This document shows, piece after piece, positions 18,840 through 20,824 of a stretch of DNA of 38,057 nucleotides (position 1 is the stretch's first letter; each line of letters opens with the position of its first letter). The notes under the pieces were generated by a model that ran no database searches, was not told the DNA's origin, and saw only the letters and a program-made list of their open reading frames with translations. Source of the DNA: Patescibacteria group bacterium. Its GTDB lineage: Bacteria > Patescibacteriota > Minisyncoccia > Minisyncoccales > DG-74-3. The stretch is from assembly GCA_018813025.1 (NCBI GenBank), contig JAHJCL010000018.1:1-38057 (forward strand), read 5' to 3'. The translations under genes were made by a program, and so were the position numbers.

Positions 18840-18977
18840 CTATGGAAAATAGGGGTTGATATTATGACCGCATTTGAGGAGAAGAATCTCTATGGTGCCA
18901 TCAGGCAGATTGGTAAGGGTTTCGGATATTTCCTTTCTTTCCTCGCATTCAGGACATTTAATTTTACTTTCTGGCAT
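18840..18977 (-). CDS. 45-aa zinc-ribbon-like microprotein MPESKIKCPECEERKEISETLTNLPDGTIEILLLKCGHNINPYFP
   Basis: Manual translation; CPEC...CGH metal-ligand pattern; TATAAT and AGGAG upstream; terminator downstream. Absent from the ORF track. Confidence 0.6.
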   Translation of the reverse strand: MPESKIKCPECEERKEISETLTNLPDGTIEILLLKCGHNINPYFP

Positions 18978-19071: not shown

Positions 19072-19184
19072 TATTTTCATAGAACAGCCATTTTTCTTAT
19101 TTTAAGTTCTTTTATAAGTTCAAATTACCATTTTCACCCTCTCTTTTCAGACCAGAACTATTTGGAGTGAATTCTCAACCAATA

Positions 19185-19213
19185 TTGACAGAATAAAATT
19201 ATTAGATTAAAAC
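19185..19213 (+). promoter_or_regulatory. Promoter-like element ahead of the RT-associated RNA (TTGACA-17 nt-TAAAAC)
   Basis: Consensus -35 at 19185-19190; weaker -10 at 19208-19213; predicted start about 19220. Confidence 0.45.
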
Positions 19214-19219
19214 AAAGTC

Positions 19220-19351
19220 GGGACCAACCGGGCTAGACAACTTCACTAGTCGCCGGTAGTCTTCAACCTCAAATAAGGCGGTTGGCAGAATCTGCCAATT
19301 AGTAGTGAGGACTGCCCCTCGCCCAATAGAACTTAGTAGCTTGGAGGTCCC
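19220..19351 (+). ncRNA. Putative structured RNA upstream of the RT, bounded by inverted repeats
   Basis: GGGACC (19220-19225)/GGTCCC (19346-19351); CCAACCG (19224-19230)/CGGTTGG (19279-19285); TTGGCAG-aat-CTGCCAA (19282-19298); GTGAGG-actgcc-CCTCGC (19305-19322). Some of these pairings are mutually exclusive. Confidence 0.5.
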
Positions 19352-19382
19352 ACCTTATGTTCTTTTAAAAAGAGGATTAAGA

Positions 19383-20429
19383 ATGAGACAAACTAGAATA
19401 GATGAATGGTTTAGTGAAACGAAGCAAAAAAAGAAACTAATTGCTAAAATACAGAAAGTGTCTGCTTTGACAAAAACTCGGCCAGAGTCTTTTTGGGAGA
19501 AATTGGAAAAAGCTTTACCTTTAAGAAAAGATTACCGGGAAGCAAAAATTCCAAAAAGAAGCGGTGGATATCGAACTATTTATATGCCTTCACCCGAACT
19601 AAAAAAGGTTCAAAAAAACATCCTACGCTATCTCCAAGAAATATGGCAAGTCCATTATGGTCCTGTGCATGGATTATCTCCAGGAGGTTCATGTGTAAAA
19701 CACGCAAGAATTCATAGCGCTTCAAGATGGATTTTTCAATTTGATATCAAAAATGCTTTTCCCTCCACGAACATTATTACATTAAGAAAACTACTCTCTC
19801 AAATAATTCCCGTAGAAGTCAACCTAGGAGAAAATGCTACAAAAATTGCCTATACCAGAGCTGAGTTAATTATAAAATTAACCACCTTTCAAGAAGGGCT
19901 TCCCCAGGGAGCTCCCACTTCACCATTCCTGTTCTACATTGTCCTCACATCAAGGAAAATAATACCAGCGACAACAGGTGGAGAGATACGGCTAACAGGG
20001 TTATTTTATAAACTTTGGAGTGCTTGCCCTCGTGGATATAAAATCAGTTGCTATGTGGATGGGTTTGTGATTTCTGGACCAAAACCAATTTCTCCTAAAA
20101 CCCAAGAGAAGATATTCAAAACTATTAGAAAGGAAAGCTTTGAAATCAATCAGAAAAAAACTCGAATTCAAGATTGCCGGCACGGAACAGTGATGATTTG
20201 CGGACTCGCAGTAGATGGAAAAGGACGAATTTCCCTTCCCAAAAAGACTATCAGGAAATGGCGAGGAATAATCGGAAAAGCGCGTTTTGATCCTGAGAAT
20301 CTTGAACTAAGACAGAAAATTGAAGGATTCGTTGCTTCTTTAAAGCCTATCTATGAAAAAGGTACTCCTCCTCAAATTACTAAGCCCTATAATCGCTACC
20401 AACGAGAATTGGTCAAGACAACATCTTGA
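19383..20429 (+). CDS. Retron-like reverse transcriptase, 348 aa, with divergent YVDG motif C
   Basis: IPKRSGGYRTIYMPSPELKKVQKNIL, VHGLSPGGSCVKHARIH, FQFDIKNAFPST, GLPQGAPTSPFL, CYVDGFVISG, VMICGLAVDGKG. Start at MRQTRIDEWF preceded by AGAGG. Confidence 0.85.
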   Translation: MRQTRIDEWFSETKQKKKLIAKIQKVSALTKTRPESFWEKLEKALPLRKDYREAKIPKRSGGYRTIYMPSPELKKVQKNILRYLQEIWQVHYGPVHGLSPGGSCVKHARIHSASRWIFQFDIKNAFPSTNIITLRKLLSQIIPVEVNLGENATKIAYTRAELIIKLTTFQEGLPQGAPTSPFLFYIVLTSRKIIPATTGGEIRLTGLFYKLWSACPRGYKISCYVDGFVISGPKPISPKTQEKIFKTIRKESFEINQKKTRIQDCRHGTVMICGLAVDGKGRISLPKKTIRKWRGIIGKARFDPENLELRQKIEGFVASLKPIYEKGTPPQITKPYNRYQRELVKTTS

Positions 20430-20824
20430 CCATCTTTTTTTAAAATAAAAAATCCCGCTAAATATTGTTTTAGTGGGAAATTATTTTTTCTTTGTTTCCA
20501 CCGCTCCATTGCTATCTCTAATATTTGTAAAAGTTCCAGTTTGACTTTTTCTCTGGTTTTATACGGCTGTACTACCATATAATAGATTCCCCTTCTAGAG
20601 TATCTCTCTTCTTCTTTTTGATTATAACTGCTTTTCACCTGAATGCGGATTTCTCTTCCCTTATTCGGAAAAATTATAAAGTCTATCCCTCGCAGATCAT
20701 CTTCGCTAAATGGAAACGTCCAGCCGAAACTCTTGATATTACCGTCTTTCTCTATTTTTTCCAAAGCATCAAAAGTCTTCTGTTCAGCTATCTTCCCTTT
20801 TTCATCGGTATTTATCTTCCTCAC
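20396..20824 (-). CDS. PD-(D/E)XK-like nuclease family protein, 142 aa, GTG start
   Basis: KIAEQKTFDAL ... RGIDFII ... REIRIQVKSS pattern (E...D...QxK). Confidence 0.55.
   Translation of the reverse strand: MRKINTDEKGKIAEQKTFDALEKIEKDGNIKSFGWTFPFSEDDLRGIDFIIFPNKGREIRIQVKSSYNQKEEERYSRRGIYYMVVQPYKTREKVKLELLQILEIAMERWKQRKNNFPLKQYLAGFFILKKDGQDVVLTNSRW
20411..20441 (+). terminator. Intrinsic terminator overlapping the RT stop codon
   Basis: GGTCAAGA-caaca-TCTTGACC followed by atcttttttt. Confidence 0.75.

Follow-up and report, generated by a model that had tools for sequence, protein, structure and literature searches.

A stand-alone retron-type lineage of Patescibacteria with an altered active site, a miniature msd-equivalent and putative retron DNA synthesis

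Organization of the locus

The window, i.e. the whole stretch of 38 057 nt that was analysed, belongs to a patescibacterial assembly of 0.54 Mb that is 96 % complete. Between ileS and argS, both named by inspection, lies a reverse transcriptase (RT) gene preceded by a structured RNA segment. The unit is isolated, as an earlier sequence-only reading had described it, and has no linked effector. The following features were located.

19183-19211 (+): promoter-like element, with TTGACA at 19183-19188 and a poor −10 (TAGATT / TAAAAC), ending just before a1
19220-19235 (+): a1, 5′ strand of the bounding stem, with outer GGGACC at 19220-19225 and inner CCGGGCUA at 19228-19235
19236 (+): candidate priming (branch) guanosine, unpaired, immediately 3′ of a1 (GCUA/G)
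19237-19279 (+): variable msr segment, its length varying between homologues in alignments
19280-19300 (+): msr-type hairpin GGUUGGCAG-AAU-CUGCCAAUU, 9-10 bp with a 3 nt loop, presumed RT recognition element
19306-19334 (+): msd-equivalent and presumed template, 29 nt, with a weak 4 bp hairpin
19337-19351 (+): a2, 3′ strand of the bounding stem, with inner UAGCUUGG at 19337-19344 and outer GGUCCC at 19346-19351
19383-20429 (+): reverse transcriptase, 348 aa, stop codon at 20427-20429
20410-20439 (+): intrinsic-terminator-like hairpin of 9 bp with a T run (TCTTTTTTT), overlapping the end of the RT gene

GGGACC (19220-19225) and GGTCCC (19346-19351) do bound a segment of 132 nt, inclusive, upstream of the RT gene, and the RT landmarks IPKRSGGYRTI, FQFDIKNAFPST, KHARIH and VMICGLAVD were recovered where they had been placed from sequence, together with LPQGAPTSPFL. 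The preferred start of the RT is the ATG at 19383, with AGAGG ahead of it; a longer frame from a GTG at 19305 is disfavoured, as it would run through the RNA segment. The terminator proposed for the RT gene is a good one, its 9 bp hairpin and T run spanning 20410-20432. The proposed promoter fared less evenly: TTGACA is present, but in the window alone the element is weak, having a poor −10 and being unlisted by a simple promoter scan. In six of eight homologous loci TTGACA is again found about as far from a1, and L015 has a perfect promoter (TTGACA-16-TATAAT).

Classification of the RT

The gene at 19383-20429 encodes a retron-class RT. Its Pfam match is RVT_1, and retron types head its PADLOC list (best score 117.6 bits). 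Among NCBIfam models, retron St85 scores 107 bits, as opposed to 52.8 bits for group II maturases (TIGR04416, cut-off 300). The protein scores below the NCBIfam cut-offs, which marks it as a distant retron member. Retron models matched all seven proteins scanned (the window RT and relatives), and no DRT model was among the 25 families listed for them. Solved retron RTs were the best matches of the window RT in a sequence search of the PDB. The AlphaFold model of the protein (pLDDT 83, pTM 0.77) gave the same result: the best 14 structural matches were all retron RTs (Eco2, Eco7/Ec78, Ec86, Ec83 and Eco8), and after these ranked G2L4, Eco8, group II, DRT9, DRT2 and DGR RTs. The fold match to retrons has an E value of 4.6e-15, versus about 1e-8 for DRT2/DRT9. 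Placement among group II introns had been named beforehand as one outcome that would speak against a retron. It was not obtained, the group II score being far below those of the retron models; no maturase domain was seen in the window RT, and an Rfam search returned no intron RNA at the locus.

Relatives and distribution

Relatives were sought in about 950 genomes, drawn from the order, the class and the phylum. Scans of genome contigs and viral contigs with the single window protein returned none, and alignment queries were required. The clade so defined has eight members, each from a different genus (the window, L015, L016, L027, L028, L050, L052 and L010). In a tree of 51 RTs, which holds retron-like RTs only and no reference outgroup classes, the eight form a group with 100/99 support, and L044 and L046 are their sisters (100/96). 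Membership of L052 is tentative because of its long branch and divergent RNA. The L010 RT ends at a contig edge within motif C (YADN). The distribution of the clade is scattered and rare; a genome of the same genus as the window, G001, has no match, and searches of the IMG/VR, phage and plasmid collections returned only remote retron-like RTs.

The upstream RNA

The 132 nt segment has a folding energy of −56.8 kcal/mol; the mean for shuffled sequences is −42.8 (z −3.4). Pair probabilities are 0.9-1.0 for a1/a2, a stem of 14 pairs in the window RNA, and for the hairpin, except for the last hairpin pair (0.6). A related RNA lies ahead of the RT in every clade member having 5′ sequence; no Rfam family matches it. 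The RNAs of the window, L015, L016, L048 (= L028) and L064 (= L050) align in the inner a1/a2 stem and the hairpin. MAFFT misaligned the long L048 insert in the full RNAs, so helices were counted on alignments from which the variable msr middle had been cut out, a choice made by hand.

Among these five RNAs 94 % of cells are paired and double changes number 8, compared with 2.4 for shuffled alignments (0/500). When L010 and the sisters L044 and L046 are included, 95.6 % of cells are paired, 20 cells are changed on both sides (7.6 in shuffles) and the covariation score is 0.479, compared with 0.176 for shuffles (0/500); the signal is lost when the partner is shifted by 1-3 columns. Six pairs in the eight-RNA alignment carry a double change, against 4.7 in shuffles (112/500); taken alone, this count does not exceed the shuffled level. 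Compensatory changes occur in the inner 8 pairs of a1/a2, e.g. A-U/U-A beside the branch site. The msr hairpin is paired in 100 % of cells in the eight sequences, with two pairs changed on both sides and a 3 nt loop that reads AAU, AAG, UAC, UAU or UAA. A covariance model built from the five sequences finds the L010 RNA, which was outside model construction, with 34 bits, the match coming from the msr hairpin part; the L052 RNA scores an unconvincing 12 bits (E 3). Conservation and covariation of the upstream segment across homologous loci, set out in advance as a check, are thus both observed. The idea of a divergent retron clade stands, on RT class, covarying RNA and clade support; that of a wholly new RT class does not, as the protein sits inside the retron-like RTs.

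Within the order, exact matches to the conserved hairpin are confined to RT loci, including a partial second copy in G158. Those matches with one mismatch that were inspected lie in loci without an RT, and as a DNA pattern the hairpin is absent from viral contigs. This second copy of the RNA (L016, 4525-4643; GGCUAG... GGUUGGCAGAAUCUGCCAGCUG) has no RT of its own and precedes the complete one by about 300 nt.

In retrons, the a1/a2 stem is 8-30 nt long and ends at the priming G, mostly within TAGC and sometimes CAGA; there are one to three msr hairpins of 7-10 bp with loops of 3-10 nt, and the msd stem is 10-50 bp (PMC6868368). A G at the position of G19236 is invariant in all eight aligned RNAs, in the context GCU[A/U]G, and its location makes it the candidate priming G. 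The segment between the hairpin and a2 is 27-30 nt in 6/6 clade RNAs, and its sequence is not conserved. It mostly folds no better than shuffles, forming stems of about 4-6 bp, and the msd stem of 10-50 bp was not found in the clade. A match of the 29 nt template to a phage was considered and set aside, no exact match of 23 nt being present in viral contigs.

The RT active site

The window RT has FDIKNAF in motif A, LPQGAPTS in motif B, YVDG in motif C, HARIH in region X and ICG in region Y. Two catalytic aspartates, D121 and D226, are kept, and the second aspartate of motif C, termed essential in HIV-1 RT (PMC3388302), is replaced by glycine, a change on which the sequence-only reading had not remarked. 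Where retrons have YxDD, each of the eight clade members reads YxD[N/G]. Region X is HAxxH, with His for Asn, in seven of the eight, where retrons have NAxxH; the accepted retrons Ec48 and Mx65 likewise vary at this Asn. Region Y is ICG in the window RT and L052 and ITG or VTG in five relatives, and VTG variants occur in accepted retrons. The motif A Asp, LPQG and the first motif C Asp are invariant across very divergent members, which speaks for retained catalysis. To judge from these residues, catalysis has probably been altered rather than lost.

The second motif C Asp is absent from 15 of the 51 RTs in the tree, through at least six separate changes. Fourteen of the 15 come from genomes of the phylum Patescibacteria; the other, L085, is from a viral contig; its branch, at 3.92, is longer than any other in the tree, and its alignment is uncertain. 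That the loss arose only once was rejected (p-AU 2e-10), the group having been named after the motif was seen. RTs lacking this Asp also tended to lack the Asn of region X (Fisher p 0.0003); on independent pairs the association was not significant, and the correlation is therefore not claimed. Outside the window clade, the patescibacterial retron-like RTs L008, L032, L033, L037, L047 and L056 have YxDN, WTDN or YADA. L008, with YADN, forms a lineage apart and has both a TTAGC site and a long hairpin of msd type.

Genomic context

No neighbouring gene is common to the loci having flanks, which are surrounded by housekeeping or unrelated genes, and neither a linked effector gene nor a fused domain was found in them. 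By inspection of translations, the neighbours are pheS-like and pyrE-like in L015, hicA-like with a membrane protein in L087, and infB-like, two to three genes away, in L089. In L087 (716-1211), a HicB/HicA-like pair lies directly upstream of the G447 retron RNA.

G001 has argS and a block found just upstream of the cassette in the window (19096-19149, 93 % over 55 bp). In G001 (L097) the interval between argS and this ileS leader block holds genes of 210 and 433 aa and no retron. As other genes separate the block from argS, this is a variable cargo site; mobility of the cassette with precise ends was not demonstrated.

Two further reading frames lie close to the unit. A 142-aa protein encoded at 20396-20824 (−), convergent with the RT, has a D...IQVK pattern and weak, sub-threshold matches to DUF4365/NERD, and is possibly PD-(D/E)xK nuclease-like; its gene was not seen beside the RT relatives. 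Between ileS and the retron, a 45-aa ORF at 18840-18977 (−) has a zinc-ribbon-like pattern, CPEC...CGH.

Proposed mechanism and alternatives

The reading that we favour, with some reserve, is a stand-alone patescibacterial retron-type unit that makes a branched DNA of about 30 nt by priming from G19236. A single transcript would start at a1, fold as an msr-msd-like RNA closed by a1/a2 and run on into the RT gene. The C-terminal region of the RT should bind the 19280-19300 hairpin; in Ec86, region Y of the RT binds an 8 bp msr stem with a UUU loop (PMC6868368). Synthesis would be primed from the 2′-OH of G19236, the segment just inside a2 (19306-19334) would be copied into DNA of about 30 nt, and the branched RNA-DNA would stay bound to the RT as a ribonucleoprotein (RNP). 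Because the second motif C Asp is Gly, catalysis would have to rely on the two aspartates that remain, D121 and D226. Since the flanked loci have neither a fused nor an adjacent effector, the RNP is supposed to act directly or with an unlinked partner. Its most likely role would be defence against mobile elements, proposed by analogy only because there is no conserved effector.

A retron reading is supported by the sister loci L044 and L046, which have YADD and carry textbook retron RNAs, and by L008, in which YADN goes with a long msd-type hairpin. It is opposed by the lack of the second Asp (PMC3388302) and of a 10-50 bp msd stem; YVDG and the very short msd also cast doubt on an RT-dependent DNA product. 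The same features are what an RNP of retron origin that has ceased to make DNA would display. In such an RNP the RT would bind the msr RNA, catalysis would be lost or residual, and the msd would be a spacer of about 30 nt with a structural role. YxD[N/G] co-occurs in the clade with a short, weakly folded and unconserved msd, and the hairpin and a1/a2 are still conserved. However, the motif A Asp, LPQG and the first motif C Asp have been held over very divergent members, template length is kept at 27-30 nt, and L008 pairs YADN with a normal msd, so that we regard a DNA-free RNP as rather unlikely.

A DRT/UG-like RT with an upstream non-coding RNA, giving a repeated or long product and not being a retron, would also account for a two-component locus with no effector, as in DRT2 and DRT9, and repeated copying of a fixed, short template is conceivable. 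Retron folds match far better than those of DRT2/DRT9, an invariant G where a1/a2 ends is a retron feature, and the sister loci carry retron RNAs; this makes a DRT-like system very improbable. The rare, scattered distribution and the lost Asp would suit a decaying remnant, or a fragment of a group II intron or other RT with a fortuitous RNA fold. Such an origin is scarcely credible given the intact ORF, covariation, promoter and terminator, and given a group II score of about half the 107-118 bits of the retron models with no maturase domain seen.

To the wider statement, that this is a retron lineage without the second Asp and the long msd, with either a two-Asp RT making msDNA of about 30 nt or a DNA-free RNP, we assign an even chance. 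Retrons were named by DNA length, Ec48 being the shortest named in the literature consulted, and a 30 nt msDNA, if real, would be shorter than classical msDNAs. Loss of the Asp at least six times, nearly always in Patescibacteria, would then point to a general route and not an accident. YxDD is regarded as indispensable in RTs, and a conserved, RNA-paired YxD[N/G] retron lineage makes that rule testable. The locus also offers a natural minimal msr-msd, of about 132 nt with a 30 nt template, and documents retrons in the tiny genomes of Patescibacteria. Full-text searches of a literature set outside which the principal papers classifying and surveying retrons lie returned nothing relevant on patescibacterial retrons; priority is not established.

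Comparison with known systems

Group II intron RTs share the RT core with the window RT, which differs in its low model score and in that neither a maturase domain nor an intron RNA was seen. The DRT2 and DRT9 defence RTs resemble the locus in combining a single RT with an upstream non-coding RNA and no separate effector; they differ in their weaker fold match and in RNA anatomy.

The sisters L044 and L046 follow the RNA plan of the window clade, with GCUUG and a GGCAGUCAG-triloop hairpin, and likewise have a TTGACA promoter and a stand-alone arrangement; they differ in having YADD, NTKEH/NAKCH and an msd of 43-52 nt with hairpins of 8-9 bp; the L044 RNA folds into a complete textbook msr-msd. 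Unlike known retrons, the window clade has YxD[N/G], HAxxH for NAxxH, an msd of about 30 nt without a long stem and no linked effector, and among the genomes searched its lineage occurs only in Patescibacteria. With the retrons Ec86/Eco1, Ec67/Eco2, Ec83, Ec78/Eco7 and Eco8 (PADLOC types III-A, XII, XI and VI) the window shares RT fold and motifs, an upstream RNA closed by a1/a2, an unpaired G ending a1 and an msr hairpin of 7-10 bp with a 3 nt loop. G19236 sits where retrons have their priming G, in TAGC and CAGA contexts (PMC6868368).
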